Origin: Deltaproteobacteria bacterium
GTDB lineage: Bacteria > Desulfobacterota > Desulfarculia > Adiutricales > Adiutricaceae
Direction: 5' to 3'
Length of the DNA: 35,897 bases
NCBI GenBank assembly: GCA_031278475.1
Contig: JAITKK010000092.1
Coordinates: forward strand, 1 to 35,897
The notes beneath the pieces were generated by a model that made no database searches, was not told where the DNA came from, and was given only the letters and a program-made list of their open reading frames with translations. Position numbers and translations under genes: made by a program. This document shows, one piece after another, positions 1,446 to 17,673 of this stretch; position 1 is the first letter of the stretch; every line of letters begins with the position of its first letter.

Positions 1446-1514
1446 TTGGTGCCTCATAAATACTTAACTAATCCGGAACTCAAAATCGGCCATTATGACA
1501 ATAAATCGTAATAT

Positions 1515-1549: not shown

Positions 1550-2373
1550 AGCTGAGGAATCCGCAAAATAATAAAAAATCCGAATAAGGTATGCTAAAAT
1601 TTGGCTATACAATAGCTGGTACTGCAAATCAATAACTGCGGCACAACAAAGATGGGTGCTTATGGCTTCAAATTTGCCTAAAACCACTTTATTCTAGCAA
1701 AATTCCAATTACAATCATAAAAACCAAGTTTTGTGATTTTGTTCCTCTCAAGAAAAACATCTTTTGGCAGTGTTTACATTAAGGTTTGTCTGTCAAAGGC
1801 CTGCCTTGGGTTCAGTAAGTACAAAAGGGCACAAAATTTGGTATGATCAGAAATATAGTGCACAATATTTGCGAAAGGTTTCCGTTAAAAAAGCAAATAT
1901 TGGGTTCTGCTTTTTATTAATAAAGCTCAAGTAGTTTATCAGTTTTTGAGGAAATTAAATAGCGACAAACATTTTGCAATTACTGACAAAACCCCAAAGG
2001 GCTAAACAATTTCAAATTGACAAGGATTTACATGCTTTGGATTACTGCATTTTGGAAGTAGGATTCTAGGATCTGCCCAAGCAAGATGTGGTAAAAAATT
2101 AAAAATATCCTCTATATATGGATTTTCATTTATGTAATTATCCCTTTGGTAATCTGCGGGAATCCGGTCCCGGCTTTGCACAATGATTATGGCGCGTTGC
2201 TAAAAGGCATATTCAAAGTAAGCTTATCCTGTATGATATATCGAGCTAGGCCCAAGCGGTGGTAGTGTGTCTTGTTTATCTGCATTCGTTTGGCAAGTGT
2301 CAAACATAAAAGTGAAAATCAAAGAAATGCCTCTGGTTATGTGTTAACGGGTCCAAAAAAGGCCCTTTCTAAC
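1550..2373. other. AT-rich non-coding region
   Basis: I find no credible gene on either strand: all frames are broken often by stops. The stretch separates the divergently oriented restriction-modification gene and the T6SS operon. It contains one clear inverted repeat, CAATATTTGC (1863-1872) with GCAAATATTG (1893-1902), which could be a hairpin or protein-binding site. Otherwise it looks like decayed or imported AT-rich DNA. Confidence 0.6.
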
Positions 2374-2402
2374 TTGACTTTTTACGTGATTTTTGCTAAT
2401 TT
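2374..2402 (+). promoter_or_regulatory. Sigma70-type promoter for the T6SS operon
   Basis: TTGACT (2374-2379) and TAATTT (2397-2402) are separated by exactly 17 bases. A transcript starting near 2409 would have a leader of about 60 bases before the tssE ATG at 2470. This placement also argues against the longer tssE frame that opens with TTG at 2272. Confidence 0.55.
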
Positions 2403-2469
2403 TAAACTAATTTTGAGGTTTGTTCCACAAGGGTTGCATCCCTTTTTTTTATCGGTAAGGCACTATATC

Positions 2470-2880
2470 ATGCGCTTAAGATTGCTGGAAAGGCTAAGGG
2501 CGGTAGAAAGGGGTGAGGCGCGCTCCGGAAACGAGATGGAGGCGCTAACCGCATCTTTGGAAAAGCACCTAGTGTTCATCCTCAACACACACCAAGGCAC
2601 ATCCCAGAGCGCACCCGATTTCGGGATGCCTGACTTCGTAAGCATAATGGGAAACAGCGATCTTGACAACATAAGGGAACTGACACAGATAATAACGGAC
2701 GTTATTGAAAAGTACGAGCCAAGGATTGGGAACGTCGAAGTCGGGTTCAACCAAAGCACCAAGGATACCGGCGTGCTAGATTTTACCCTGAATTGCTCCA
2801 TGATTGTAAATGGGGTCAGGCGGGATCTCTTCTTCAACACACTTATAACCCCTGACGGCTCCGTTAGGGTCAGGAAATAG
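2470..2880 (+). CDS. tssE: T6SS baseplate protein TssE (gp25-like)
   Basis: TssE is the gp25-like wedge protein of the T6SS baseplate and works in the cytoplasm at the base of the contractile sheath. The 136-residue product has the family layout. An N-terminal helix (LRLLERLRAVE) is followed by a segment of TssE type (SLEKHLVFILNTHQGTSQS), then the FGMPDF motif, then the gp25 core ending in a strand that carries LITPDGSVRVR. The ATG at 2470 is chosen because GGTAAGG precedes it, the protein then starts where TssE proteins normally do, and a good promoter lies just upstream. The frame extends back to a TTG at 2272, but that part is AT-rich and unlike the family. It is the first gene of the T6SS run; a 92-base gap separates it from tssF. 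Confidence 0.9.
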   Translation: MRLRLLERLRAVERGEARSGNEMEALTASLEKHLVFILNTHQGTSQSAPDFGMPDFVSIMGNSDLDNIRELTQIITDVIEKYEPRIGNVEVGFNQSTKDTGVLDFTLNCSMIVNGVRRDLFFNTLITPDGSVRVRK

Positions 2881-2934
2881 AGCCTTTCCCTCGCACACAT
2901 CGGGCTGCGGGGCGAGCGCCAACAAGTCATGGGC

Positions 2935-2955
2935 GCGGCAAAGAGTTGTTGCCGC
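2935..2955 (+). promoter_or_regulatory. Hairpin just before the tssF start
   Basis: GCGGCAA (2935-2941), a 7-base loop and TTGCCGC (2949-2955) form a perfect 7-bp stem ending 17 bases before the tssF ATG. The tssF ribosome-binding site is weak. The hairpin may adjust tssF translation relative to tssE or act as an RNA-processing site. There is no T-run, so it is not a typical terminator. Confidence 0.35.
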
Positions 2956-2972
2956 TACCAATGGATATTTGA

Positions 2973-4682
2973 ATGCTCAAGAACTACTACCAGGAGGAAC
3001 TGGACTTGGTCAGGGAGCTTGCCCAGGAGTTCTCCAGGGACAACCCCGCCATAGCCTCGCTCTTGGGCGCGAAAGGCGACGACCCGGATGTCGAGAGGCT
3101 CTTGGAAGGGGTCGCCTTCATGTCCTCCTTGGTGCGACAGAGCCTTGACGAGGGGTTCCCCCAGCTCATCCAGTCCTTGCTCCAGCTTCTGTATCCCCAG
3201 GCCCTGCTCCCCACCCCAAGTTACACCATGATGCTCTTCCAAGTGGCCCAGGGCTTCATCGAGTCCATAAACCTAAGGGCCGGGTCCGAGGTTGCCTCCG
3301 TGGCCATAGGGGGCGCCAAGGCGAGGTTCACCACAACCGACGACCTGTGGATACTTCCGGCTGCCGTACAGTCCGTGACGGACGAGAGATCCGCGGGCGC
3401 GGTCAAGGTGACGCTTGTAATCAAGTCCCCGGCCCCTTTGGCCTCTTGGCTCCCCGAAAAGCTCTCGATTTACTGCGCTGGGGAGTTTGCGGCTGCCAGC
3501 GAGCGGCGCAGGCTCCTTCTGCAGCACTCTGCGCGGGTGGAGGCCGGGACCATCGGCCAGACGGTCCCTTTGCCCAAGGGATCCCTTGAGCCCGGAGGCC
3601 TTAAGAGCACTCCCGGGAAGCCGCTTACCGAGAGGCTCTCCCACGCGCTTTCCATCATGCAGGAGTATTTCGCGGTGCCCCACAAGTTCCTCTTCCTGGA
3701 GCTTTCCGGGATACGGGAGCGGGTGAACCTGGCGGACAACGAGCTCAGGCTGGTCTTCGTGCTGGACGGCTTCAAGGGGGCCCTCCCCAGCCTCAGGCCC
3801 GAGCACTTCCTCTTAAACGTCGTCCCGGCGGTGAACGTATTCCGGCACCAGGCCATCCCCATCATCGTGGACCACAAGAAGCACGAGTACCTCCTGCGAC
3901 CCCAGGACAGTGAGAGCGAACGCATATCCATCTACCGGGTGCTGGAGGTCTCAAGCCGTGCCCAGGACGGCTCGGTCAAGCCATACCTCCCCTTCGAGCA
4001 GGTGGCCAACAGGGAGAAGGGCTATGGCTGCTACACCGTGTCCGTGAGGAAGTCGCCCATATCGGGGCTGGCCCAGCACTTCATAGGCATGCACTACCTA
4101 AAGGACAGCACCCTCGGAAGGGAGACCCTGTCGGTCGGCCTGGAGTGCAACAACCTGGGGCTCACGGAGCAGATCCGCACCGGGGAGATAAACCAGCCCA
4201 CCGACAGCTCGCCAGCCATGGCCAGGTTCTTCAACATAATACCGCCCACCCGCCATGTGGGGCAGCTGGGCTCCGACAGCCAGTCCTGGACCATTTTGTC
4301 CCACCTGCACGTGAACCTGGCCCCGGTGCTGGATGCGGAGTCCCTGAGGGAGCTTCTGGGCCAGTACTCCCTGCCGGGGGACACGGACATGGGAAGGAAG
4401 CTGGGCAACCGCAAGCGCATAGAGGCCATCCAGGACCTCTCACTTAGGAGGGAGGATCACTTCGTGAGGGGGAGGCCCATCCACGGCTACCGCCTGGAGC
4501 TGACACTGGATCAGTCCGGCTTCGCTTCCATGGGCGATCTCAGGCTCTTCGGGGACGTGCTGGATCACTTTTTGGGCCTTTTCCATCACCTGAACACCTA
4601 CTCGAGACTCAGCATCATCGAGAAGAACAGCAGGGAGGTCATAAGTTGGGTCCCGAGACTGGGTACGAGACGGCTGATCTGA
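2973..4682 (+). CDS. tssF: T6SS baseplate protein TssF (ImpG/VasA family)
   Basis: TssF is the large wedge protein that, with TssG, TssE and TssK, forms the T6SS baseplate in the cytoplasm. The 569-residue product begins with the characteristic TssF N-terminus: MLKNYYQEELDLVRELA, then FSRDNPAIASLLG and DPDVERLLEGVAFM. Next come the helix with LIQSLLQLLYPQALLPTPSY and the long beta-rich body. The length is slightly below the usual 580-630 residues. The ATG at 2973 is the only sensible start: the frame has no upstream extension resembling the family. Its 3' end overlaps tssG by 37 bases in a different frame, which suggests coupled translation and fits the known stable TssF-TssG complex. Confidence 0.95.
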   Translation: MLKNYYQEELDLVRELAQEFSRDNPAIASLLGAKGDDPDVERLLEGVAFMSSLVRQSLDEGFPQLIQSLLQLLYPQALLPTPSYTMMLFQVAQGFIESINLRAGSEVASVAIGGAKARFTTTDDLWILPAAVQSVTDERSAGAVKVTLVIKSPAPLASWLPEKLSIYCAGEFAAASERRRLLLQHSARVEAGTIGQTVPLPKGSLEPGGLKSTPGKPLTERLSHALSIMQEYFAVPHKFLFLELSGIRERVNLADNELRLVFVLDGFKGALPSLRPEHFLLNVVPAVNVFRHQAIPIIVDHKKHEYLLRPQDSESERISIYRVLEVSSRAQDGSVKPYLPFEQVANREKGYGCYTVSVRKSPISGLAQHFIGMHYLKDSTLGRETLSVGLECNNLGLTEQIRTGEINQPTDSSPAMARFFNIIPPTRHVGQLGSDSQSWTILSHLHVNLAPVLDAESLRELLGQYSLPGDTDMGRKLGNRKRIEAIQDLSLRREDHFVRGRPIHGYRLELTLDQSGFASMGDLRLFGDVLDHFLGLFHHLNTYSRLSIIEKNSREVISWVPRLGTRRLI

Positions 4683-5758
4683 TTGGGGAGCTCCAAAGGG
4701 ACCCCAAGGGATTCTCCTACTTCCAGGCCCTGAGGCTGCTCTTCAGGGCCCATGCCGGGAAGGGTGCGCCCCAGGACCGTGCTTCCTCTTTGGCCTTTTT
4801 CCTCCGCAACGCCGTGAGGGTGAGGGCCGAGGTTGATTTGGGCTTTCCGGGCTCGGACATCACCGAGGTCAAGTGGGCCCAACCCAGCTGGAAGGGGAAG
4901 GATCCCTTCCACAGGCTAACCGTCACCTTCATGGGGCTCTACGGCTCCGCCTCCCCGCTCCCGCCCTTCTACGGGAGGGAGGTCCTGGAGGATGTCCTGG
5001 ACGACATGGGTGGGATCCGGGGCTTTTTTGACCTTATCTCCTACTTCAGCTACCGCAACCACGCCCACGCCCTGTTCTTAGGGAACATAGCCTCAAGGAT
5101 CCTTGAGGCCGCCGACGGCTTCACCCGGCTGATGCTCAGATCGTTTCTGGGGGTGCCGCATGCGGCCATGAGGCGGATCATTGGCAGAAGGGACCAGGAC
5201 CTTCCCTACCTGCAGCTCTTCGCGACCAAGCTGCGCCACGCCCCTGGCCTGGTAACCTACCTTAGCGGAAGGCTTGGCGGCCAGGAGCTGGACCTTGAGG
5301 AGTGCGTCCCCAGGACGCTCGACATCCCCGTTGGCCAAAGGGCGAGGCTGGGCCACGACAGCGCCTCCCTGGGGGAGACCGCCATGCTGGGCCGCCATGC
5401 GACCGACCTTACCGGCAAGTTCAGGATTGTGCTGAAGGTCTCCGACATGGAGGGCTTGGAGGACTTCATGCCGGGTGGCGCAAAAAGGAAGGTCCTGGAG
5501 GAGGCCCTTGCCCGCTACGTGGACTCCCCGCTGGAATGGGACGTGCTGGTATCCTTGGGCGAGGGGAGCCTCGAGGGCTTCACCCTGGGCTCCAAGAAGC
5601 GGCCTTTGGGCATATCCACCTTCCTTTCCCCTAGGAAGAGCGACTCCAAGGACATCCTGAGCCCGGCCATGGCAAAGGAACTCTTGTCCCGGGACCCGGC
5701 ATCCGGCTTCCGGAAGGATTACGGGGCACCTTCTGCCAACCAGGGGGCAAGGGCTTGA
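4646..5758 (+). CDS. tssG: T6SS baseplate protein TssG (ImpH/VasB family)
   Basis: TssG pairs with TssF in the baseplate wedge. The 370-residue product carries the family's early motif around FSYFQALRLLFRAH (residues 23-36). The conserved TVTFMGLYGSASPLPPFY segment follows near residues 91-108, and then the FFDLISYFSYRNHAHALF stretch. The start codon is TTG at 4646. It is preferred because GGGAGG sits 7 bases upstream, inside the end of tssF, giving a strong ribosome-binding site and a 37-base overlap. The stop codon overlaps the TTG start of tssJ. The C-terminal tail after about residue 340 is low in recognisable structure. Confidence 0.93.
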   Translation: MGPETGYETADLIGELQRDPKGFSYFQALRLLFRAHAGKGAPQDRASSLAFFLRNAVRVRAEVDLGFPGSDITEVKWAQPSWKGKDPFHRLTVTFMGLYGSASPLPPFYGREVLEDVLDDMGGIRGFFDLISYFSYRNHAHALFLGNIASRILEAADGFTRLMLRSFLGVPHAAMRRIIGRRDQDLPYLQLFATKLRHAPGLVTYLSGRLGGQELDLEECVPRTLDIPVGQRARLGHDSASLGETAMLGRHATDLTGKFRIVLKVSDMEGLEDFMPGGAKRKVLEEALARYVDSPLEWDVLVSLGEGSLEGFTLGSKKRPLGISTFLSPRKSDSKDILSPAMAKELLSRDPASGFRKDYGAPSANQGARA

Positions 5759-6831
5759 GGCACGTACCCGGACATTCCCATGTATCGGCAAAGGGCAAGG
5801 CCACGCTCAAGGCCACGCACATGGCCACGCACATGGCCACGCTCTTGGCCGCTCTTATGGCCGTCCTCATGCTCACGGCCTGCGGGCCCAAGGTCCCGTC
5901 GCCCGTCCCGCCCCCCGGGGCCCCTGCCAAGAGCCCTGGGGCCTTGGAGTACGCCTACTCCCCAGGCGGCATAGGCATAGGCATAATGAGCGACCCTGAC
6001 CTGAACATCACAGAGGATGTACCCACCGCCCTGAGCATCTGCATCTACCAGCTGAGCGACACGTCCTGGTTCCAAGGCAACATTTCCACCTCCCAGGGTC
6101 TGACCGAGCTGCTTGCCTGCCCTCCCAAGCCAGCGGCCCTTGTGCCCGGGGGGCCGGCACCCACGCCTCCCGCTGGTGTCGTCAGCGCCGAGCGCAGGCT
6201 CATACAGCCAGGGCAGAGCATGGATCTTTCCCTTGACCGCATGGTGGGCACCAAGTTCGTGGGGGTTGTCGGTGGTTACAGCGCGCTAACGGCCCCGGGT
6301 TCGGCATCCGTCCTGGCTATCCCCTACATCATGAACAACAAGCTCTTTCGCGCGAACACCTACGAGCTTGTGGAAATGAGGGCCTGGCTCATTTTAAAGC
6401 GGCAGTCGCTTGCCTTCTTCCTCAAGGACAAGGCCACCTACGACAAGAAGACCGCCGACTTCCTGCCACCCAGCAAGCCGGAGCCCCCGGCCTACTGTCC
6501 TGTATGCGCCGAACAGGCGGCAGCGGCTGCCGCCCAAGAGGGAGCTGTCCCAGCCCCGCCAGTGGTTGTCCCGGCCCAGCAGGGGGTTGTTCCGGCCCAG
6601 CAAGGTGCTGTCCCGGCCCAGCAGGGAGCTGTCCCGGCCCAGCAAGGAGCTGTCCCGGCCCAGCAGGGGGTTGTTCCTGGCCAGCAGGGAGCTGTCCCGG
6701 CCCAGCAGGGGGTTGTCCCGGCCCAGCAGGGGACACTCCCACCGCCGCCTTTGGGTGGTGCTGCCAGGACCTCTGGGGCAGCTACCAACCCGGTGGGGGT
6801 CACGCCCACCAGAAGCTCGCAGCCGAGGTGA
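5755..6831 (+). CDS. tssJ: T6SS outer-membrane lipoprotein TssJ with a repetitive Pro-Gln tail
   Basis: TssJ is the lipoprotein that tethers TssM to the outer membrane. The signal sequence has basic residues (K13, K15, K19), a hydrophobic run and the lipobox LTAC with Cys43. Gly44 at +2 fits outer-membrane sorting. The TssJ beta-sandwich follows, with ALSICIYQL near residue 100 and FVGVVGGYSAL near residue 167. It ends near residue 230. The TTG start at 5755 is preferred because it overlaps the tssG stop and keeps the basic n-region; the first ATG is at 5821. Unusually, residues 271-326 are eight heptads of the type (A/V)VPAQQG, followed by a Pro-rich end. Typical TssJ proteins are about 150-190 residues, so this one is roughly twice normal length. 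A 311-base spacer separates it from tssK. Confidence 0.85.
   Translation: MRHVPGHSHVSAKGKATLKATHMATHMATLLAALMAVLMLTACGPKVPSPVPPPGAPAKSPGALEYAYSPGGIGIGIMSDPDLNITEDVPTALSICIYQLSDTSWFQGNISTSQGLTELLACPPKPAALVPGGPAPTPPAGVVSAERRLIQPGQSMDLSLDRMVGTKFVGVVGGYSALTAPGSASVLAIPYIMNNKLFRANTYELVEMRAWLILKRQSLAFFLKDKATYDKKTADFLPPSKPEPPAYCPVCAEQAAAAAAQEGAVPAPPVVVPAQQGVVPAQQGAVPAQQGAVPAQQGAVPAQQGVVPGQQGAVPAQQGVVPAQQGTLPPPPLGGAARTSGAATNPVGVTPTRSSQPR
6565..6732 (+). repeat. 21-bp coding tandem repeat in tssJ (8 units)
   Basis: Eight consecutive 21-base units encode (A/V)VPAQQG heptads; the sixth has Gly for Ala. The units are nearly identical at the DNA level, so copy number is likely to vary between strains by slippage or recombination. 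The encoded tail would be an extended, flexible periplasmic segment. Confidence 0.9.
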
Positions 6832-6976
6832 GACAGGGGGTATCCAGGTATCCGTTATGTTCTTATCCTTTCCTATGAGGCCTTTGGGTTTGGGTAATTT
6901 GAAAGTTGGAAATTTTGACGATTGGGTGGTTTCAAAGTTGGAAAGTTGTGATTTCCGATAGTTTCATGTTTTAGAA

Positions 6977-7080
6977 GCTCTCTTGCGCTTTGAGAGCGGG
7001 AACGGCCTTTTTGGTTCTGGAAATGGTTATGCGCGTATGTTGTCGGCCTAAGCCCGATACGGCAACAATCGCAAGAGAGC
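6977..7080. repeat. Long-range inverted repeat in the tssJ-tssK spacer
   Basis: The 311-base spacer between tssJ and tssK holds no gene. GCTCTCTTGCG (6977-6987) and CGCAAGAGAGC (7070-7080) are a perfect 11-base inverted pair about 100 bases apart, enclosing weaker internal pairings near 7040-7066. GCTCTC can also pair locally with GAGAGC (6992-6997), so two alternative folds are possible. Upstream lie two copies of AAAGTTGGAAA (6902-6912 and 6934-6944), 32 bases apart. It could be a structured leader for tssK or a small non-autonomous mobile-element remnant. Confidence 0.45.
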
Positions 7081-7142
7081 GTTTATCCTGGCCCCTTGGG
7101 CTTTAAGCAGCCTGCCCTGCCAATCCGCGGACGGAGGAACCG

Positions 7143-8537
7143 ATGAGCAACAAGCGACCAATCTTCTGGCGGCAGGGGACCTTCCTGGAGCCCCAGCACT
7201 TCCAGCTTCTGGAGCTGCAGCAGAGAAACGACCTTTCCGCCTTCCTTGGCGCGGTCATCCCCTGGCCCTGGGGGTTCACGTCCCTGAAGCTGAACGACGA
7301 CGCCCTCCAGAACTACGATTTGGAGATCCTGGAGCTCGATCTTTGGCTCCCGAACGGGAGGAGGCTGGTGCTCCCGGACAACGTGTTGATCCGATCACAG
7401 TCTTTCAGGAAGGTCTGGACGAACCCTGACGAGCACCTGGAGGTCGCGCTCACCATCCCGCATTTCTCGGAAACGACGCCAAATGTGGTGCCCGAGTCCT
7501 TGGAGGGCAGCCAGCCGGAGGCGGCCGAGCGGCTGTTCACGGCCCTGGTGCCCCAGAAGGGCACCCCGGATCTCCTTGGCGACGGGCCGCCCTCCATGAT
7601 GGACACGCTCCAGTACAACGCGACGCTTGTCTTCGGGGCGGACGCCAAGGGCAAGAAGGAGGGCCACTACATAATCCCGCTCGCAAGGCTCTACAGGGAG
7701 GGGGAGCGGCCCAGGCTTACGACCTTCCAGCCGCCCACGCTTAACATCTGGCCGGAGAGCCCGCTCCACCAGGTGATGGTGGACATAGGGGAGCTTGTGA
7801 GGGCCAAGGCAAGGCAGCTGGAGGAGTTCAAGGTGAGCCCCGCCCAGACCAGGACCCAAGGGAGCGGAGGCTCGAGCTTGTCGCTTGTGATATCGCTTGT
7901 GATTATCTCAAGGCACATCTCAAGGCTCCACAACCTCGCATCCTCGTCGGCACTTCACCCCTACCATGCCTTCGGCGCCTTGAGGGAGTTGGTCGCCGAC
8001 TTGACCATATTCGCTCCAGGCATATCCGCCCTGGGGGAGCCGCTCAACGACACGGGGAAGGCCCTTCCCCCTTACGACCACATGGATCCCTACCCCAGCT
8101 TCCTTGAGACCAGGAACCTCGCCTCAAGGCTCCTGGACACCATAAACCCGGGCCCCGAGCTCAACCTCAGCTTCAGGCGCGACCACGATCGTTTCCACCT
8201 GGACTTCCCGGCCTGGATGGACATGAACTTTGTCTGCTGGGTCTCGCTCCACCAGGAAGGGGCCCTGGCCGAGGCAGGGGCCTCCCTTGTGTCCTACGGG
8301 AAATTGTCCTCCCCCGCGAGGCTTGACAGCATACTGGGCTACAACCTCCCGGGCATAGCCCTCACACCTTTGAAGGGGGCCCCTGTGGGGCTCCCCAGGA
8401 AGCCCGACACCACCTACTTCGCAATCAGGCGGGAGGACCCGCTCTGGGAGGAGGCTTTGAAGTCGGGGCATCTCACCCTGTTCTGGGACAACGCCCCGGA
8501 GCAGTGCACCCTCTCGCTGATGGGGAACAGGATCTAG
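7143..8537 (+). CDS. tssK: T6SS baseplate-membrane adaptor TssK
   Basis: TssK is the trimeric cytoplasmic adaptor that links the baseplate wedges to the TssL/TssM membrane complex. The 464-residue product starts with the family's signature: a WRQGTFLEPQHFQLLE segment at residues 9-24, followed by a PWPWGF stretch. It then has the phage-receptor-binding-like body and the helical bundle around residues 240-300. Length is normal for TssK (about 440-460). The ATG at 7143 has GGAGG 6 bases upstream. tssL follows after only 4 bases, so the two are co-transcribed. Confidence 0.95.
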   Translation: MSNKRPIFWRQGTFLEPQHFQLLELQQRNDLSAFLGAVIPWPWGFTSLKLNDDALQNYDLEILELDLWLPNGRRLVLPDNVLIRSQSFRKVWTNPDEHLEVALTIPHFSETTPNVVPESLEGSQPEAAERLFTALVPQKGTPDLLGDGPPSMMDTLQYNATLVFGADAKGKKEGHYIIPLARLYREGERPRLTTFQPPTLNIWPESPLHQVMVDIGELVRAKARQLEEFKVSPAQTRTQGSGGSSLSLVISLVIISRHISRLHNLASSSALHPYHAFGALRELVADLTIFAPGISALGEPLNDTGKALPPYDHMDPYPSFLETRNLASRLLDTINPGPELNLSFRRDHDRFHLDFPAWMDMNFVCWVSLHQEGALAEAGASLVSYGKLSSPARLDSILGYNLPGIALTPLKGAPVGLPRKPDTTYFAIRREDPLWEEALKSGHLTLFWDNAPEQCTLSLMGNRI

Positions 8538-8541
8538 GGCC

Positions 8542-9567
8542 ATGCGTTTCGCGGAGCGCTATTTCGGCATATTCCATGCCGTCCTGGAGGCCACCAAAAA
8601 GGGCGGCAAGGCCCAGAGTCCGGGAAAGTTGAGGGAGCTAATCACAAGGCTCATGCAGGAGGAGGAGAACCAGCCCCTGCCCCAGGGCTATTCCCAGGCC
8701 GACCGCAGGGAGGCCCTGTGGCCGGTGCTTGTCTGGGCGGACGAAAGGCTCATGACCTACCCCAAGGACAACCCGGCCTGGCACGCCCACAGCCTCCAGA
8801 GGGAGTTTTTGGACACCAACCAGGGCGGGAGCCTCTTCTTCCTGCGCCTTGAGGATTTGCTGGCCCGCAGGGAGGGGGGCCTTCCGACCCGTCGGACCGA
8901 TGATCCGTTGCCCATCGGCCCGGAGCTAAACGCCGAGTCCTTCGATGGGGAGGGGACCCTGGAGGCGGCGGCGGACGAGGCCGTCGAAAAATGGCGGGAT
9001 CCCGGACAGGGCCCAGAGCCCCTCGAGGGGATACTCGACGTGTTCGCCCTGTGCCTGCTCATGGGCTTCCAGGGGCGTTACAGCCAGGGCAAGACCCTCC
9101 CGCCAAGCAAGGTGCCGAGGATGGACCCCCCCCAGCCCGTCCTTTGGAAGGAGCCGGTCGCCATGCCCTTGGGCGGGCCCATTGGCGACCCCGAGGGGGA
9201 ACCCGGCCACCCGCAAGACGACCCTGCCGGAAAAGCCGCGGACGACTTTGGCTATCAGCTCACGGTGGGGGTCCCCTACAGACTGACGGGAAGCTTGGTG
9301 CGGGGCCTCTCGGACGGCCAGCTCCAGGACGAGGAGGGGAGAAGGGCCCTGGCCGAGCTGAGGAGGCTCTCCCAGGAGCAGCTAGCGGCCTGGAGGGAGC
9401 GGGATCTGGCCCCGCCCCCGGTCAAGAAAAGGAAGACCCTGCTCCAGAGGCTCATTGATTTCTTCTGGGAGTACGACTGGGTGCTCCTCTACATTGTGAT
9501 CCCCATCGCGATTTTGGGCTTCCTTTACCTAAGATCCCTGCGGATAATACAGAACCTGCCGTTTTAG
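8542..9567 (+). CDS. tssL: T6SS inner-membrane protein TssL (DotU/IcmH family), short form
   Basis: TssL is the inner-membrane partner of TssM and docks TssK. The 341-residue product has the DotU cytoplasmic hook domain: FAERYFGIFHAVLEA at the start, LVWADERLM near residue 73, FLRLEDLL near residue 97 and ALCLLMGFQGRY near residue 170. A single transmembrane helix lies close to the C-terminus (about 311-331). It ends about ten residues later, so there is no OmpA-like peptidoglycan-binding domain as found in 'evolved' TssL proteins. The region from about 125 to 165 and the segment around residues 190-240 are enriched in Pro and Gly and look like insertions. A terminator-like hairpin follows 10 bases after the stop codon. 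Confidence 0.93.
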   Translation: MRFAERYFGIFHAVLEATKKGGKAQSPGKLRELITRLMQEEENQPLPQGYSQADRREALWPVLVWADERLMTYPKDNPAWHAHSLQREFLDTNQGGSLFFLRLEDLLARREGGLPTRRTDDPLPIGPELNAESFDGEGTLEAAADEAVEKWRDPGQGPEPLEGILDVFALCLLMGFQGRYSQGKTLPPSKVPRMDPPQPVLWKEPVAMPLGGPIGDPEGEPGHPQDDPAGKAADDFGYQLTVGVPYRLTGSLVRGLSDGQLQDEEGRRALAELRRLSQEQLAAWRERDLAPPPVKKRKTLLQRLIDFFWEYDWVLLYIVIPIAILGFLYLRSLRIIQNLPF

Positions 9568-9617: not shown

Positions 9618-9750
9618 GTGGAAAGTCCTTGCGCTTTTTGGAGGGTGCTTGGAAAAGGCCTAAAAAACTTTGTTGCGGAATGTTACGGAATTATGGCATT
9701 CGGAAGCTGGCATCCGATATTTAGGATTTGACATTTAGTGCTTGGTATCC

Positions 9751-9792
9751 GGCATTTGGTATTTGGCATTTGGTATTTGGCATTTGAAATTT
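9751..9792. repeat. 14-bp tandem repeat before tssM (3 units)
   Basis: The 467-base spacer 9568-10034 has no credible gene. Three 14-base units lie in tandem: two identical copies of GGCATTTGGTATTT and one GGCATTTGAAATTT. Further GGCATTTG-like pieces occur up to 9993. The core CATTTG recurs in the 14-bp array at 17357-17426. Confidence 0.8.
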
Positions 9793-9932
9793 GCAAATTG
9801 TTCGGGCACAGTCGGAATTTGGGAAAGGCCAAGGCCGGATTCCAAAATCCGGGCCAAAAAGCCGGGCGTTTTAACATTCGCCCTGGCATTTGTCTTTGTT
9901 TGCGCTCATTTTGTCGTTCTTTGTTTTAGTAA

Positions 9933-9961: not shown

Positions 9962-10034
9962 ATCAGGCATTTGCAGGCATCCTCGGCATTTGGCTTTGGC
10001 CTTTGCCCTAACCCGCCAGGGTCTTTTCAGGATC

Positions 10035-13000
10035 GTGGCAAACCCGCGAAAACGGCTGCTTTTGAAAAAGTTCCTCTTCATAATCCTGTTGATGGTGCTC
10101 GCCTTCGTCTCGGCGGTGATACTGCTGGGTGTTGCCTGGTACTTCCAGTGGCCGGCCTGGGTTGCGTTGCTGGGGCCCGTGGTCTTCCTTGTGATCCCGC
10201 TTTTCTGGTGGCTCCTCACCCTCGGGTTCCAGGCAATCGCGCGCCGGAAATTCTCCAAGGCGGTGGTGTCGGCCGAGAAGGTGGTCGATCGGGAGGCCCT
10301 GAGCGCCAGCATCCTGGAGCAGGACTGGGACCGGGGGCTCCTCTCGCTGCGCTCGGTAAGGCCCAAGAAGGGAAGGGACCTAAGGCACGACGCGGACTGG
10401 TTCCTGTTCTTGGAGCCGACGAGGAAAGGCAAGGAGAGCTATCTGCAGTCCTCCGGGACGGTCGCCGACTTTTTGGACATGGGAAGCTCGGGCGACACCC
10501 GCAGGGCCGGGGCGGGTTTTAACTGGTATCTCTCGGGCGACAGCGTCCTTTTGGAGCCCCAGGGCTTCCTGAGCATCTCCGAGCCCCCGATGCCTCTCAC
10601 TGGGGCCGCTTCCGGCGTGGGCCTTCCCAAGGGCCCGGGATCCAAAGGCCCGCAGGAGCTGCGGCCCGGGGTGGCCCCGGTGGGAGGGCCGCCCCCCCCG
10701 GAGGCGGCCCTCCCGCTGCAATCTGGCTCGCAGGCGGCGGCGCAGCCGCATCCCACCCTTCCAAGGGAAAGGGACATCCTCCAAGAGAGCCAGGACTGGG
10801 AGGCGTTCCTCAAGCTTCTTGCGAAGACCGGAAGGAAGAAGGCCCTTAACGGCATCGTGCTAACCATCCCCGGGGAGCTTCTTCTGAGGGAAAGGGAGGC
10901 AGAGCTCCTGGACCTGAGCGTGCGCACCCGCAAGCTCTTGGACAGGCTTGTGAAAGAGACCGACAACCAGGCGCCCTGCTACATAATGCTCACCGGCCTC
11001 GCCCCCTTCAGGGGGCTCCCAGAGGCCGTGTCAAGGCTCGAGGGCAAGGGCCCGGTGGGGCTGCTTCTCGACAAGGGCGAGGAAGGGGCCATCCCGGCGA
11101 GGCTCTCGGCGGAGCTGGGGGATGTGTTCAAGAACGGGTTGCTGGACGAACTGGGCGGCCCCCCCGATGCCCTGTCGCCCCTGTTGATGGCGCCCAGGTC
11201 CCTAAGGAGGCTGGAGAGGCCGCTTACGGTGTATCTTGGGGGGCTGTCAATCGAGTCGCCGTTCACCCCGCCACCCAGGGTAAGGGGCGTGTTCCTGGAC
11301 GCCGGGGGCGCAAGGCCCCAGCCCCAGGATCCGAACGCGCCGGCGGAAGATAACCTCGCCTACAGCGGGTTCCTGAAGGGGGTGCTGCCTGCCAACGCGG
11401 ACCTGTCCCAGCGGCTGAACCTCCCGGGAAGCACGAGGCAAAAGCGCATAGTGCTGATATGCGCGGCATTCTATCTCCTGGCCTTGGCCGTGGGGCTGCT
11501 CTTTTACAAGAACGTGGTCTACCACAGGGACATTTCCTCTGTGAGCCAGGGCTTCAGGGAAGGGGAAAGGGCCTTCTACGACCCGGAGGCCTCGGGCCAG
11601 GACTCGGTGTTCCAGGCAAACGCCCTCAGCTACCTGTTGTCCGAGCTGGAGGCGGAAAAGGGCAGGCACCTCATAAGGGGGGTCGGCCCCGACAGGGCCA
11701 ACACCTTCATCGATGACGTGGAAACCGACTTCCAGAAGAGCTTCGAGAGGGCCCTGAAGCAGCTGATTATGGCCTTGGGGCAGCAGTTAAAGGAGGTCCC
11801 GGACCAGAACTCCGTCGAGTACGCCATCACCCTGAGGCAGATACTCTGGCTGCTGTCGGTCTTCAACAAGAAGGTGAAGGGGGAGGATTACGCCCGGCTC
11901 GATGCGAGCTTCCCGCTTCTGCCGGCCAGCTTCCACGGGCCCACCGAGCAGTACTGGGAGACGGGTTTCTGCCAGCTGTTGATGGAGTACCTCAAGCGGG
12001 GCGAGACCGACAGATTGGGATACGTCCCCTTGACCGAGCTCACCCACTCCCTTGAGCTGGCGGTGGGCATGAACGAAGACAACGGCATGAACTGGCTCAC
12101 CAGCTGGGCATCCAACCTCCCGGAGCTCCGCGGCATCAAGGTGAGCGACTTCTGGGACCAGTTCGGGAGCCCGGATACCATGCGCGACATCATCCCGAAA
12201 GGGGCGGTCACGGAGGTGCCCGGGGTCTATACCCTGAAGGGGAGGGCCGCCATAATGGACGCGCTCGCCGAGCTGAGGGAGGTCTATAAGTCCGATTCAG
12301 CGGTCTTCGCCCAGCACTTCCAGGACTACCAGGCAAACTACGACAGCGCCTACCTCGCCACCTGGGGCGGCTTCTACGCCTCTTTCGTGAAGGTGGCCGA
12401 CAACGTGCTCCGCTACGAGGGCATAGAGGGCCTCTACGCCGAAAGGCGCAGGGGCGGTCACGGCCCCTACGGGCGCTTCCTCAGCACCTTGGCGGCAAAC
12501 CTGAAGCCCTTCCTGTCCGAGCGGCAGAGCGATTTGTTCCTCAACAACGTGGAGCTGGACATGGCGGTGGGGGTCTGGAACAGGGCAAGGGTGGGGCTCC
12601 TGAACGCGAGGGAGATGCCCACGAGAAAAAGGCTGGGCACCTACGGCCAGGTGATAGACAGCCTCAAGGGGAGCATCCAGGACGTGTACTACCGCACCGA
12701 GTTCGTGGAGCGTGTCTACCAGGCGGAGATGGCCATAAGCAAGTACAACACGGCCGAAGGCGACATAGTGACGCTGCTCTACGAGCACCCCGACCAGGCG
12801 ATGAGGCTCGCCGCCATCTTCTTCGCGGGCGGGGCGATGCTACCGTCCCCGGCCATGGATCCTACCACGGGGGGCAAGGACCCCATGGGGATGCCAGGGC
12901 CCGGGCGGGACCCCGCTCTGGCCCCGGAAGTGGACATCCTGAGGGCGGGCGGGGCCTTCGGCACGGCGGAGGAGGCCCTGAGCGAATACGCCCAGAACAT

Positions 13001-13802
13001 CTACAGGAACCCGGACGGCACCCCGGCGGAGGATCTGTTCATAGCCTTGGCCGGCAACACGCTAAAGAACCTCAGGAGTTTCCTGGCCCAGACCTCCGCC
13101 CGGACACTTAACGCCAGCTGGGAGTCGGATGTGTACATGCCCACGCATTTCCTCCCGCCCGACGAGGCCGCGGAGCGGCTCTTCGGCCCGGACGGGCTTA
13201 TAATGAAGTTCGTCGAAGGCCCGGCCGCGCCCTTCATCGAGAACAGGGGCATGGCGGGCTACGCCCCCCGCAAGTGGGGGACGGAGACCTTCCCGGTCAC
13301 CAGGGACTTCCTCGCCATGGCATCCATGGCCTCCTCCGAGAACCTGAGGCAGCCATTCCTCGATAGCTACCCGGTGACGCTCACACTTACCGGGGCGGTT
13401 GTGGACCAAGGCGCCAAGGAGAAGCCGGAGAGAACGACTTTGTACATGAAGTCCGGGGCGGATGTGACAACCATTGTCAGCTACAACTACCCCGTCACCC
13501 AGTCCTTCTCCTGGAAGCCCCTGGAAAAGGGCGAGACAGGCATAGAGATAAGCTTCCCCAGCCTGTCGCTTTTCGTCCACTACGACACGGAGCAGGGTTT
13601 CCCCACCTTCCTCAACGACATAGCCGCCTCGGGTTTCTCCTTCACGCCCGCTGATTTCCCCGACCACAAGGAGCAGCTGGAGGCCATGGGCATCACCAGG
13701 ATTAGGGTCCTGGTGCAGGCCGACGGCTCCTACCCGGTGATATCCTTCCTGAGCCTCTCGCAGGCGACCATTCCCAAGAGCATCATCCTCGGTGGCGGCT
13801 GA
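10035..13802 (+). CDS. tssM: T6SS inner-membrane/periplasmic protein TssM (IcmF family) with degenerate Walker motifs
   Basis: TssM spans the inner membrane and periplasm and contacts TssJ and TssL. From the GTG at 10035 the product is 1255 residues. Two transmembrane helices (about 13-36 and 39-57) come first, then a cytoplasmic domain, a third helix near 470-492, and a large periplasmic part to the end. The cytoplasmic nucleotide-binding site looks degraded. Where the family has GxxGxGKT there is LEPTRKGKES (about residues 123-132), and the Walker B LIDTAG region reads LLEPQG, without the Asp. A Pro/Gly-rich insert follows (about 195-245). The start is uncertain: the frame opens with TTG at 9990, but that segment belongs to the CATTTG repeat region. 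The stop overlaps the next start (TGATG), indicating translational coupling. Confidence 0.9.
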   Translation: MANPRKRLLLKKFLFIILLMVLAFVSAVILLGVAWYFQWPAWVALLGPVVFLVIPLFWWLLTLGFQAIARRKFSKAVVSAEKVVDREALSASILEQDWDRGLLSLRSVRPKKGRDLRHDADWFLFLEPTRKGKESYLQSSGTVADFLDMGSSGDTRRAGAGFNWYLSGDSVLLEPQGFLSISEPPMPLTGAASGVGLPKGPGSKGPQELRPGVAPVGGPPPPEAALPLQSGSQAAAQPHPTLPRERDILQESQDWEAFLKLLAKTGRKKALNGIVLTIPGELLLREREAELLDLSVRTRKLLDRLVKETDNQAPCYIMLTGLAPFRGLPEAVSRLEGKGPVGLLLDKGEEGAIPARLSAELGDVFKNGLLDELGGPPDALSPLLMAPRSLRRLERPLTVYLGGLSIESPFTPPPRVRGVFLDAGGARPQPQDPNAPAEDNLAYSGFLKGVLPANADLSQRLNLPGSTRQKRIVLICAAFYLLALAVGLLFYKNVVYHRDISSVSQGFREGERAFYDPEASGQDSVFQANALSYLLSELEAEKGRHLIRGVGPDRANTFIDDVETDFQKSFERALKQLIMALGQQLKEVPDQNSVEYAITLRQILWLLSVFNKKVKGEDYARLDASFPLLPASFHGPTEQYWETGFCQLLMEYLKRGETDRLGYVPLTELTHSLELAVGMNEDNGMNWLTSWASNLPELRGIKVSDFWDQFGSPDTMRDIIPKGAVTEVPGVYTLKGRAAIMDALAELREVYKSDSAVFAQHFQDYQANYDSAYLATWGGFYASFVKVADNVLRYEGIEGLYAERRRGGHGPYGRFLSTLAANLKPFLSERQSDLFLNNVELDMAVGVWNRARVGLLNAREMPTRKRLGTYGQVIDSLKGSIQDVYYRTEFVERVYQAEMAISKYNTAEGDIVTLLYEHPDQAMRLAAIFFAGGAMLPSPAMDPTTGGKDPMGMPGPGRDPALAPEVDILRAGGAFGTAEEALSEYAQNIYRNPDGTPAEDLFIALAGNTLKNLRSFLAQTSARTLNASWESDVYMPTHFLPPDEAAERLFGPDGLIMKFVEGPAAPFIENRGMAGYAPRKWGTETFPVTRDFLAMASMASSENLRQPFLDSYPVTLTLTGAVVDQGAKEKPERTTLYMKSGADVTTIVSYNYPVTQSFSWKPLEKGETGIEISFPSLSLFVHYDTEQGFPTFLNDIAASGFSFTPADFPDHKEQLEAMGITRIRVLVQADGSYPVISFLSLSQATIPKSIILGGG

Positions 13803-16800
13803 TGTCGAGAAGGACCAGGTACATATTGCTCTTCGTGCTGGTGGGATTCGGGGTGGTCGCGTACTTCATCTACCTCAAGATGGGCCCTGTCCCCGAAAGG
13901 GTGGTGGAGACACCGATCGCCCCGCTGCCACCGCCCTTGGTGCTCCGTCCCGACGAGTTTTTGACCGAGCCCGAGGAAGACGAGCTGGCGAGCTATGGGG
14001 CCTGCCCCAACGCCATGGAGCAGTCCTTCTCCGGCACCGGCAGGTTCGGGGAGCTCACCGGGCACTACGACTCGAAAGGCCGCTACGTGTTCTTCATGGT
14101 CCTTGAAGGGACCACCGGGTTCATACGCGCCTACGAGGACATCCAGCGCCGCTCGCGCAACGTGACCTTCCTGGACTTCAAGGGCGATCTCCGCATGCGC
14201 CAGTCCCAGCTGGTGCCCCTCCCGCAGGGCCCTGTGAGCCGGGTGCGCCTTGGCACCCACAGGGGCTTCCTGCGGGTTAGCTTCAACTACCAGAGCTCAA
14301 AGGTCCCAAAGATTGTGCACATCGAGCTGCGCTGCGGCTTTGGCAAGGTTGCCATCCGGCTCACCTTCGACCAGGTGACGCCCCCGCCCATGCATCCCGA
14401 GTACAGCAGGAATTCAGGAGCCCCAGGGCAGGCACCCGCGCCTCTCGCCGCCCCGGCCACCCAGTCCGCACCCGCAGGGCCGCCCCCTCCGCCCATAGGC
14501 ACGGGCGGACCCTTGGACACCCCGGCCGAGGCAGCCGCTGCCGCGAAAGCGGCCCAGACAACCCCTGGCGTAAAGACCGAGCCCCTGCCGGTACCAGGGC
14601 CGGGCGGGGCCAAGCGTTCCAACAACCCCGGTACAAACAATCCAACAAGCGCTCCAGCAACCGCTCCAGCAACCGCTAATCCCGGTACAGATAATCCAGG
14701 AAGCGCTAATCCCGGGACAGATAATCCAACAACCGCTCCAGCAACCGCTAATCCCGGAACAGATAATCCAGGAAGCGCTAATCCCGGAACAGACAATCCA
14801 GGAAGCGCCAATCCCGGTTCAAACAATCCAGGAAGCGCTAATCCCGGGACAGATAATCCAGGAAGCGGTAATCCCGGGACAGACAATCCAGGAAACCCTA
14901 ATCCCGGTACAATCAATCCAGGTAGCGCTAATCCCGGGACAGATCATCCAGGAAGCGGTAATCCCGGGACAGATAATCCAGGAAGCGGCAATCCCGGGAC
15001 AAACAATCCAGGAAGCGCCAATCCCGGTTCAAACAACCCAGGAAGCGGTAATCCCGGGACAAACAACCCAGGAAGCGGTAATCCCAGTTCAAACAACCCA
15101 GGAAATCCTAATCCCGGAAGAGGAGCGGCCAAGAACTTGCCGCAGGATCCCTACGGGCTTGCGGGCTACTCCCCCTGCCAGGGCGAGGGGGCGGGCTTGG
15201 GTAGCTTCGGGAACTTTGAGGAGGGGGTCGACTTCGAGGGCAGGCTGGTATTCATAAGCACGCTGGACGGTGCCTTGGGATCCTTCGTGACCGACCAATC
15301 CTTGGGCGGTTCCGGGCAGCATGCCAGCTACATCGACTTCAGCGGCAGCTTCCGGGGTCCCAGAGGTGGGCAGAATTTCCCGGCCGAAAGCCTTGTAAGG
15401 TCGGTCCGTTTTGGCGACCACAGGGGTTTTACCCGCATGAGCTTCACCTATCGCGGGTCCAAGGGCCCCGAGGCCGTGCGGGCGGAGGTTCTATGCAAGG
15501 AGCGGTCCGTGGCCGTCAGGCTCAGCCTGACGGGCGAGGGCTACGAGCCCACCCCCGATGACATAGAGGCAATAATAGCCCGGGTAAGGGGCCCTGAGCC
15601 GGTTTCAAGCGTGCCGCCCAAGGTGGAAGGCGCCCTTGGTCCCATTGCGGAAGGGGGCACGGTCCAGGCTGGGCTTCCTGCGGATCCGAGTGCGGCTGTC
15701 CCCATGATTGCCCCGATACCGGCACCCGATCCCGCGGCTCGTACGCCTTCCGCTGGCACAGCCCAGGCACCCGCGGGCACAACCGGAGCCCCTGCGACAG
15801 GCCTTCCAGCCGAAGCGTCCGGGGAAGGCCAGCCAGTCGCGGAGGCGGTGCTTCCACATGCGGAGGGCCCTGCGGGAAGCGCACTGACGACCGGGATAAT
15901 GGACGCAACAGTTCAGCCGCCCGCTGAAGTGCCAACCGAGGTCCCCAAAGAGCCCGAAGCAGCCGCCGCGCCAGAGCAGGCCGCCGCGTCAGAGCAGGCA
16001 GCCGCGCCAGAGCAGGCTCCTGCGCCCGAGCAGGCGGCAGAAGCCCCGCAGGCGGCCGCAGCCGGGTCAGAGCCTTCTGGCATCCCCGATCTTCCGGGTT
16101 ACTCCAAATGCGAGACCAAGAGGGGGCCAGGCCAAGGGAGGTTCGGGGCCTTTACGACCCGTTTGGTGGGGTACAACACCTACATTGCCGAGATCCCGTT
16201 CACGGGTACCATTGGGAAGGTCACCATCCTCAACCTTAAAAGGAAGTCTGCCACAAGAAGCGTTACCTACGTGGACTTCCAGGGCTCCTTCACTTCGCGG
16301 CAGAGCGAACTAAGAGACGGCTTGGGTCCTGTCTCCAACATGAAATACGGCAAGCACCGCAGCTTCGCCCGTATAAGTTTCAACTTCCATAACGAACTAG
16401 CGCCTGGTTCCGCAACGACGGAAATCTTTTGCAAGCCCGGTTACATGGCAATCAAGGTCTCTATGGACATGCCTGACTGGAGGGGCGGGAAGGCGGCGGC
16501 CGCCGCGGGCATAAAAACCGGTACAAGCCCGGAGCCCCAGCCTCCCGTTCCGGAAGCCAATGCCCCTGAAGGCGCAAGCGGCGGCACCCCTGGGGTAGCC
16601 CAAGATGCCAACCAAGCCCAGGATGGAACGGTTCAGGAAGGAACCAACCCTGATGTGCCCCTTGAAGGTGAGCCCGCCCCTTCAGGCGGTGAGGAAAGCG
16701 AAAAGCCGACAAGTGATGCCAGCGTGAATACGAAACCTGACTTCAACCTCAGAAATTACGGCCCCTGCGAGGGGGCAGAGCCAGGGCATGGCACCATAGG

Positions 16801-17128
16801 CAATATCTGGACCCAGTTGGACGGAAGGAACAGGCTGGTATTCGTGCTCCCCATAGACGGCACCTTCGGGCCAGTGGCTATCGCAACCAATCTCGAGGAC
16901 AAGGAGAACCCGCACAGCGTCATAAGCTTCAAGGGCGACTTTGCCATTAGTGTTTCGGAAAAGCGGGTGAACGAGTCACCTATAAGCCATATAGAGCTTG
17001 CCAAGAAGCAGGATGCGGCGGAGATGTTGGTAGCCTACACGCCCGGGATCACGTCACGGGAGGTCATCTCCGAGTTTTACTGCAAAGAGGGGGCCATGGC
17101 CGCAAGGCTCACCATGGATGCCAGATAA
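13802..17128 (+). CDS. Membrane-anchored protein with four copies of a two-cysteine domain, coupled to tssM
   Basis: I do not recognise this 1108-residue protein as a named T6SS part. One N-terminal transmembrane helix (about residues 7-26, after MSRRTR) anchors it with the rest in the periplasm. Four divergent copies of a domain of about 120 residues follow, at roughly 65-190, 455-575, 766-885 and 985-1108. Each opens with YxxC and closes with a Cys followed by a pattern like GxxAxRL (for example CKEGAMAARLTM). Inside are a strand like VTYVDFQGSF and then a GxHRxFxRxSF-like strand. The two Cys per domain suggest a disulfide. The fold loosely recalls AMIN domains, which bind cell wall, but this is inference. 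Pro/Asn/Gly and Pro/Ala/Glu linkers join the domains. The ATG overlaps the tssM stop by one base, so it is probably made with TssM. Confidence 0.75.
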   Translation: MSRRTRYILLFVLVGFGVVAYFIYLKMGPVPERVVETPIAPLPPPLVLRPDEFLTEPEEDELASYGACPNAMEQSFSGTGRFGELTGHYDSKGRYVFFMVLEGTTGFIRAYEDIQRRSRNVTFLDFKGDLRMRQSQLVPLPQGPVSRVRLGTHRGFLRVSFNYQSSKVPKIVHIELRCGFGKVAIRLTFDQVTPPPMHPEYSRNSGAPGQAPAPLAAPATQSAPAGPPPPPIGTGGPLDTPAEAAAAAKAAQTTPGVKTEPLPVPGPGGAKRSNNPGTNNPTSAPATAPATANPGTDNPGSANPGTDNPTTAPATANPGTDNPGSANPGTDNPGSANPGSNNPGSANPGTDNPGSGNPGTDNPGNPNPGTINPGSANPGTDHPGSGNPGTDNPGSGNPGTNNPGSANPGSNNPGSGNPGTNNPGSGNPSSNNPGNPNPGRGAAKNLPQDPYGLAGYSPCQGEGAGLGSFGNFEEGVDFEGRLVFISTLDGALGSFVTDQSLGGSGQHASYIDFSGSFRGPRGGQNFPAESLVRSVRFGDHRGFTRMSFTYRGSKGPEAVRAEVLCKERSVAVRLSLTGEGYEPTPDDIEAIIARVRGPEPVSSVPPKVEGALGPIAEGGTVQAGLPADPSAAVPMIAPIPAPDPAARTPSAGTAQAPAGTTGAPATGLPAEASGEGQPVAEAVLPHAEGPAGSALTTGIMDATVQPPAEVPTEVPKEPEAAAAPEQAAASEQAAAPEQAPAPEQAAEAPQAAAAGSEPSGIPDLPGYSKCETKRGPGQGRFGAFTTRLVGYNTYIAEIPFTGTIGKVTILNLKRKSATRSVTYVDFQGSFTSRQSELRDGLGPVSNMKYGKHRSFARISFNFHNELAPGSATTEIFCKPGYMAIKVSMDMPDWRGGKAAAAAGIKTGTSPEPQPPVPEANAPEGASGGTPGVAQDANQAQDGTVQEGTNPDVPLEGEPAPSGGEESEKPTSDASVNTKPDFNLRNYGPCEGAEPGHGTIGNIWTQLDGRNRLVFVLPIDGTFGPVAIATNLEDKENPHSVISFKGDFAISVSEKRVNESPISHIELAKKQDAAEMLVAYTPGITSREVISEFYCKEGAMAARLTMDAR
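14621..15117 (+). repeat. Coding tandem repeat, Asn-Pro-Gly-rich linker
   Basis: About 500 bases of in-frame repeats, mostly 30-base units encoding decapeptides such as NPGTDNPGSA, with shorter and degenerate units at the start. They form the flexible linker between the first and second cysteine domains. The units are so alike that length variation between strains is expected. The base composition is distinctly more AT-rich than the flanking coding sequence. Confidence 0.9.
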
Positions 17129-17673
17129 AAGACCTTGGCAAGGGGTTTAATGTCTAAAATCAGACGAAATTATTGGATAAACCGTAAAATCTAAAATGCT
17201 TGCGAAGTCTTGCCGGTATGCAAAAGAGCTTCCTTGGAAATTGCTCGCAACATTTTAAGTCATCCAAGTATAATCCACTCCAATTATCCATAATTATATG
17301 GATGAGGGCACAAACGCCTTGTCCATTTACGCATGTCAAATGACAGTGATAACAACGTTATTTGATCAGTGTCATTTGAGCTGTGTCATTTGAGCGATGT
17401 CATTTGACCAGTGTCATTTGGGCAGTGTATTCCGTCAAGGGTTGCGATAATTCGCAATTATTTGCGATTATTTGAATACACTTTTGACTATTACATTTTT
17501 TTTTATTATCGTGGTTGTTGGTTTTTGCCAAAAGACCAATAATCTGCTGCGTGAATCTTTCAACGCCAATACAATTTGCAATTTGCATTTTGCATCTTGC
17601 ATCTTGGATTTTGCATCTTGGCTTGATTGATTTGAAAAGGCTTTTGTCCGCACCATTCCAATGCCTTTTGGCC
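17129..17673. other. Spacer between the T6SS locus and hisD (convergent genes)
   Basis: There is no credible gene here. The stretch lies between two convergent genes and is AT-rich. It contains a perfect hairpin, ATCCATA-ATTA-TATGGAT (17286-17303), the 14-bp array at 17357-17426, and degenerate TTGCATCTTGG-type repeats around 17575-17625. I see no strong intrinsic terminator for either flanking gene. Confidence 0.6.
17357..17426. repeat. 14-bp direct repeats with CATTTG core (5 units)
   Basis: Five head-to-tail 14-base units: GTTATTTGATCAGT (degenerate), GTCATTTGAGCTGT, GTCATTTGAGCGAT, GTCATTTGACCAGT and GTCATTTGGGCAGT. An inverted copy of the core, GTCAAATGAC, lies just upstream (17335-17344). 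The regular spacing and variable last four bases look iteron-like, but no replication gene is near. Confidence 0.85.

Follow-up and report, generated by a model that had tools for sequence, protein, structure and literature searches.

A gene behind tssM encodes four AMIN-fold domains and a candidate peptidoglycan tether of a divergent type VI secretion system

The type VI secretion system (T6SS) requires anchors in the cell wall (PMC8253398). The known anchors are OmpA-type domains on TssL or TagL, together with the poorly studied TagN, TagP and TagW (PMC8253398, PMC10433429). The locus analysed here raises the question of what is encoded directly behind its tssM gene, and what the product might do for the secretion machine. 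The window, that is, the whole stretch of 35,897 nucleotides that was analysed, carries the T6SS operon in the order tssE-F-G-J-K-L-M upstream of the gene in question (Table 1). Against NCBIfam, TssM, TssL and TssJ stayed well short of the cut-offs (79.8 bits against 388, 67 against 90, and 23 against 32, respectively); therefore, the membrane complex belongs to a divergent class. On the other side of the gene lies, on the opposite strand, what we take from its translation alone to be a hisD-like gene.

Table 1. Positions of the T6SS genes and of the parts of the tetra-AMIN gene in the window
Feature	Position	Strand	Basis
tssE (gp25-like)	2272..2880	+	Pfam GPW_gp25 2.1e-17
tssF	2973..4682	+	Pfam 7.6e-108
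tssG	4646..5758	+	Pfam 1.2e-52
tssJ, lipoprotein, repeat-rich C-terminal tail	5755..6831	+	Pfam T6SS-SciN 34 bits
tssK	7143..8537	+	Pfam T6SS_VasE 2.9e-63
tssL (DotU), one C-terminal membrane helix, without peptidoglycan-binding domain	8542..9567	+	Pfam
tssM, divergent	9990..13802	+	IcmF_N 66 bits
TssM-linked tetra-AMIN gene	13802..17128	+	ORF, 1108 aa; internal domain homology; Pfam AMIN
tssM stop/AMIN-gene start overlap TGATG	13799..13805	+	Sequence; overlap of 1 or 4 nt (-1/-4) also in 10 relatives
Inner-membrane helix, N-terminal, positive-inside, juxtamembrane MGxP	13802..13885	+	20 homologues aligned at N-terminus
AMIN domain D1 (Cys68, Cys178), ~residues 61-190	13982..14371	+	AlphaFold, Foldseek; best Pfam AMIN stretch
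Linker 1, Pro/Gly/Asn-rich	14372..15142	+	30-bp minisatellite inside, about 14641-15117
AMIN domain D2 (Cys459, Cys565), ~residues 448-578	15143..15535	+	Homology to D1
Linker 2, Ala/Pro-rich	15536..16078	+	Composition
AMIN domain D3 (Cys770, Cys877), ~residues 760-890	16079..16471	+	Homology to D1
Linker 3, Pro/Ala/Gly-rich	16472..16726	+	Composition
AMIN domain D4 (Cys989, Cys1094), ~residues 976-1108	16727..17125	+	AlphaFold, Foldseek

The initial annotation had described a gene that overlaps the tssM stop codon and encodes one N-terminal membrane helix followed by four related two-cysteine domains, and this layout was borne out. The ATG lies inside the tssM stop as TGATG, so that the two genes are likely joined by translational coupling. 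The N-terminus, MSRRTRYILLFVLVGFGVVAYFIYLKMG, contains a single hydrophobic segment preceded by the positively charged start MSRRTR; the protein is the product of its own gene, unfused to TssL. The four domains are mutually homologous in all six pairs (phmmer 1e-9 to 1e-18; local-alignment z of 20-31 against shuffles), and the eight cysteines of the protein are distributed exactly two per domain. As to the motifs that had been assigned to the domains, the YxxC start is present in all four (YGAC, YSPC, YSKC and YGPC in D1 to D4), whereas the Cys-x-x-G-x-x-A end holds for D1, D3 and D4 and fails in D2, where CKERSVA is found. The linkers, of 85-257 residues, have few hydrophobic residues and much Pro, Ala, Gly and Asn. 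A Pentapeptide_2 match (66.5 bits) does not represent a domain: it falls on the NPGSxNPGTDN repeat that the 30-bp minisatellite encodes in linker 1. NCBIfam contains no family for this protein, and no match to PF00691 (OmpA/Pal/MotB) was found in it with Pfam.

The identity of the repeated domain is given by the AMIN family. The whole protein matched Pfam AMIN (PF11741) with 30.7 bits against the curated cut-off of 20.5 (E 3.4e-7). Taken singly, the domains are divergent: only 9 of 61 reach Pfam AMIN at E<0.01. The consensus of the gathered relatives is GPVxxxRxGxHxGFTRLSLNY...P...E.LC. In a profile-profile comparison (hhalign) with AMIN proteins of the same order, selected as PF11741 matches, the AMIN core was aligned with a P value of 0.0018; the best value from 40 column-shuffled profiles was 0.078. 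A sequence search of the PDB with the 61-domain profile gave no match, which made a fold search necessary. AlphaFold models were built for D1 and D4, with the sequences of the window and of related loci as input, and had pLDDT values of 91.2 and 90.8 and pTM values of 0.86 and 0.80, respectively. Among solved structures, the best Foldseek match of D1 was the B2 domain of Neisseria PilQ (probability 1.00, TM 0.58), and AmiC was also found (probability 0.99). The top three matches of D4 were PilQ, PilQ and AmiC, with a probability of 1.00 and a TM of 0.61 to PilQ B2. The TM values of both models to PilQ B2 and AmiC ranged from 0.52 to 0.61. The E-values were 0.002-0.08: the fold probability is high and the significance modest. 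The matched domains of PilQ and AmiC are AMIN domains. The structure search on single domains thus had PilQ and AmiC as the best matches for two of the four. Small heat-shock proteins were also considered as a fold match and were dismissed because of lower TM values (about 0.3-0.4) and a large rmsd. The "loose resemblance to AMIN" noted earlier is consequently correct as to the resemblance and too cautious as to "loose", since the Pfam score above the cut-off indicates real homology. The four domains of the tssM-linked protein are homologous AMIN-fold domains.

The cysteines appear to be a property of the domain as a pair. In 79 near-full domains, both are present in 67 and neither in 11; a single cysteine occurs once. 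This joint presence or absence points to a disulphide, and hence to a periplasmic location, an oxidising compartment. The N-terminal helix is also kept: in 20 aligned homologues it is positive inside and is followed by a juxtamembrane (M/L)GxP. A Trp is found in the middle of the helix in most relatives, and its place is taken by Phe in the tetra-AMIN protein. D1 to D4 align in order with those of a sister genome (G029) with 32-59% identity, and dN is well below dS; as dS is near saturation, the direction alone counts. The domains thus seem to be maintained by selection. It should be mentioned that D4 of the sister genome lies in a separate overlapping frame without an evident start of its own (L033:2110-2820 and 2700-5228, minus strand). 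This might be a frameshift, an assembly error or a split gene.

The position of the gene was surveyed in 41 genomes of the order, of which 23 have the domain and 28 have TssM. The gene after tssM was read in three groups of tssM. In the divergent class, counted over loci with enough 3' sequence, tssM is followed immediately by the AMIN gene in 19 cases out of 24. It is behind both intermediate tssM genes (L070, L071) and behind none of the five canonical ones (IcmF_N >200 bits). One genome (G031) has both kinds of tssM: the divergent one carries the AMIN gene, and the canonical fragment ends before its downstream gene. Looked at from the other side, 19 of the 23 AMIN genes with upstream sequence follow tssM, and four (L035, L036, L056 and L061) have no tssM in front. 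One to five domains are encoded, and in some loci these are distributed over two or three genes. Further downstream, the genes are variable. The check proposed earlier, whether homologues are consistent neighbours of tssM, thus came out positively, and the gene lies within T6SS clusters and keeps that place, as is expected of a T6SS accessory. The idea that every tssM of the divergent class has an AMIN gene was rejected, as the second tssM copies of five genomes have none behind them.

In genus g5, there are two tssM clusters (loci L034, L038, L039, L042, L235, L236, L238, L239 and L240). One has the order tssK-tssM-AMIN with no recognised tssL between tssK and tssM; the other has the order tssK-tssL-tssM without AMIN, and its TssM ORF is very large (1420-1860 aa). 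A division of labour between the clusters, or a shared TssL, is possible. In L034 (1058-4267, minus strand), the AMIN gene is followed by further tssM-like pieces in several short frames, which may be what is left of a second tssM. The genome of L056 has no detected tssM; there (6361-7308), a tssF remnant of 120 aa directly precedes a single-AMIN gene that is intact. The AMIN gene may thus outlive its own T6SS.

Beyond the order, a scan of 297 genomes of the phylum gave seven that match the domain profile. Of the five places outside the family, two are directly behind tssM (G080:C8 and G178:C20) and three are elsewhere. A single-AMIN gene is behind tssM in a Desulfobacterales MAG (L093) and in one Shewanella (L134), and a goat-rumen Desulfovibrionaceae MAG (L207) has the order tssM-AMIN-tssE. 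The single-AMIN proteins that were read outside the order have no Cys pair. A broad occurrence among the relatives of Shewanella was not found: one of 117 genomes of its family has the gene. Judged by TssF, the closest relatives that carry names are Deltaproteobacteria MAGs (Roe453, Gx485 and Nc350 are among their codes), probably from termite guts; genomes of this type appear to have been recovered only as MAGs. Members of the family Adiutricaceae have been described among termite-gut Desulfobacterota (PMC9137090).

These features suggest that the AMIN protein probably serves the T6SS membrane complex as an accessory subunit, tethering TssJLM to peptidoglycan. The single N-terminal helix would hold the protein in the inner membrane beside TssM, presumably with the N-terminus inside and the C-terminus outside. 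The four AMIN domains, predicted to be stapled by disulphides, would extend into the periplasm on the long flexible Pro/Ala/Gly-rich linkers and grip peptidoglycan there, although not every AMIN domain need bind it. The TssJLM complex, tethered to the wall and perhaps also placed by it, could then withstand the contraction of the sheath. The function would be that of TagL, or of the OmpA domain in a "specialised TssL", but it would be carried out by several copies of an unrelated fold. PilQ provides a precedent: in pull-downs its AMIN domains go with peptidoglycan, and they determine where the pilus machine is placed (PMC5285504). More tentatively, and with somewhat less than an even chance in our judgement, the proteins might constitute an undescribed subunit family of multivalent AMIN tethers, with one to five domains, that are encoded behind tssM and co-evolve with divergent TssM, TssL and TssJ. 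In the AMIN-linked cluster of g5, which has no tssL between tssK and tssM, the AMIN protein may have become the centre around which the complex is rebuilt.

The same neighbourhood could also be explained if the protein helped TssM to assemble or kept it stable: its helix would pair with TssM, and its AMIN domains would hold the periplasmic part of TssM. The strict position behind tssM with its stop/start overlap agrees with this, as do the conserved helix with its mid-helix Trp and MGxP, and one Cys-less AMIN domain is enough in several lineages. There is also a parallel in Campylobacter, where FliO with its AMIN domain supports FlhB of the flagellar export gate (PMC12403147). However, four or five AMIN domains on very long linkers would be left unexplained, and multivalent binding of an extended polymer fits them better; a stability factor seems unlikely to us. 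A role in positioning or wall opening seems quite improbable. Here, the AMIN domains would recognise a state of the wall, such as septal or denuded glycan, and bring either the complex itself or a housekeeping amidase or transglycosylase to the site where the complex must cross the wall. PilQ localises the pilus machine via peptidoglycan binding of its AMIN domains (PMC5285504), and a wall enzyme is required for T6SS assembly (PMC8253398, PMC10433429). However, a catalytic domain is missing from the AMIN protein, and the T6SS operon of the window contains no recognised wall hydrolase; moreover, a positioning role overlaps with anchoring, and sequence is unable to separate the two. Finally, the protein might be an unrelated envelope protein that is co-transcribed with the operon by chance. 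The four homologues without tssM upstream would agree with this, but the tssM-AMIN order recurs in several genera, in other families of Desulfobacterota and in one Shewanella, with varying downstream genes. Given this neighbourhood survey, such a coincidence is disfavoured and we regard it as very improbable.

For the tethering role, one argument is weak. It had been pointed out that TssL lacks a peptidoglycan-binding domain, so that a multidomain periplasmic protein could do the anchoring. The lack is real, with no PF00691 in TssL, but it does not discriminate, because TssL of AMIN-less relatives is also without a wall-binding domain. Among the OmpA matches listed, none was on a T6SS contig, with or without AMIN. 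A takeover by AMIN from an OmpA anchor is therefore unsupported, since among these matches OmpA is absent from the AMIN-less T6SS contigs too. The absence of another anchor does not alone call for the AMIN protein.

The protein shares with PilQ and AmiC the fold, the predicted periplasmic location and the RxGxHxGFTRLSLNY stretch aligned to the AMIN core, and with PilQ the tandem copies. It differs in its conserved Cys pair, N-terminal YxxC extension and very long linkers, in the absence of a secretin or amidase domain, and in its T6SS operon context. Like TagL and the specialised TssL, it would be an accessory inner-membrane protein of a T6SS cluster with a putative wall-binding periplasmic part. 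In contrast to them, it lacks an OmpA/Pal/MotB domain, has a single helix where TagL has three, carries up to five predicted binding domains and is linked to tssM. The AMIN-containing FliO similarly combines a membrane helix with a periplasmic AMIN domain and is encoded with the core of a secretion machine. However, FliO belongs to another machine and is a short single-AMIN protein with a described role in export-gate stability. The neighbours of the present gene are tssE-F-G-J-K-L-M, and linkage to fliP, fliQ or fliR, as would be expected of a FliO, is absent. TagV and TagX are also T6SS envelope accessories that act at the wall; TagV is an outer-membrane lipoprotein and TagX a peptidoglycan endopeptidase, and the texts consulted report no AMIN domain for either.

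In the open literature searched, no paper was found that has "AMIN domain" and "TssM" together. The few papers with both AMIN and T6SS seemingly mention them in passing, to judge from one to three occurrences. What would be new here is a T6SS wall-anchoring accessory, a known class, that is built on AMIN and not on OmpA. OmpA-type anchoring of the T6SS is known and some systems are seemingly anchorless; the repeated-AMIN protein next to tssM is a candidate for their anchor. With it, the T6SS would join type IV pili and flagellar export, whose wall contacts are AMIN-based, and an AMIN tether is a testable answer to how AMIN-bearing T6SSs resist recoil. The place behind tssM also gives a simple search rule for more such proteins.

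The remaining parts of a T6SS are found elsewhere in this genome: contig C219 encodes TssA, a ClpV-like ATPase, Hcp, two TssC and DUF2169, DUF3540 and pentapeptide proteins. The second TssC is in a 685-aa ORF (L233:65-2119, minus strand; G000:C219), with the sheath domain from residue 255, and adjoins the DUF3540, DUF2169 and pentapeptide-repeat proteins. In the window, an MmeI-type restriction-modification protein, truncated by the window edge (3-1463, minus strand), adjoins the T6SS operon. Tandem-repeat arrays are found at 6532-6731, 9742-9793, 14641-15117, 17360-17428 and 17575-17620: the units are of 21 bp in the tssJ tail, 30 bp in the AMIN linker, and 7, 14 or 21 bp between genes.
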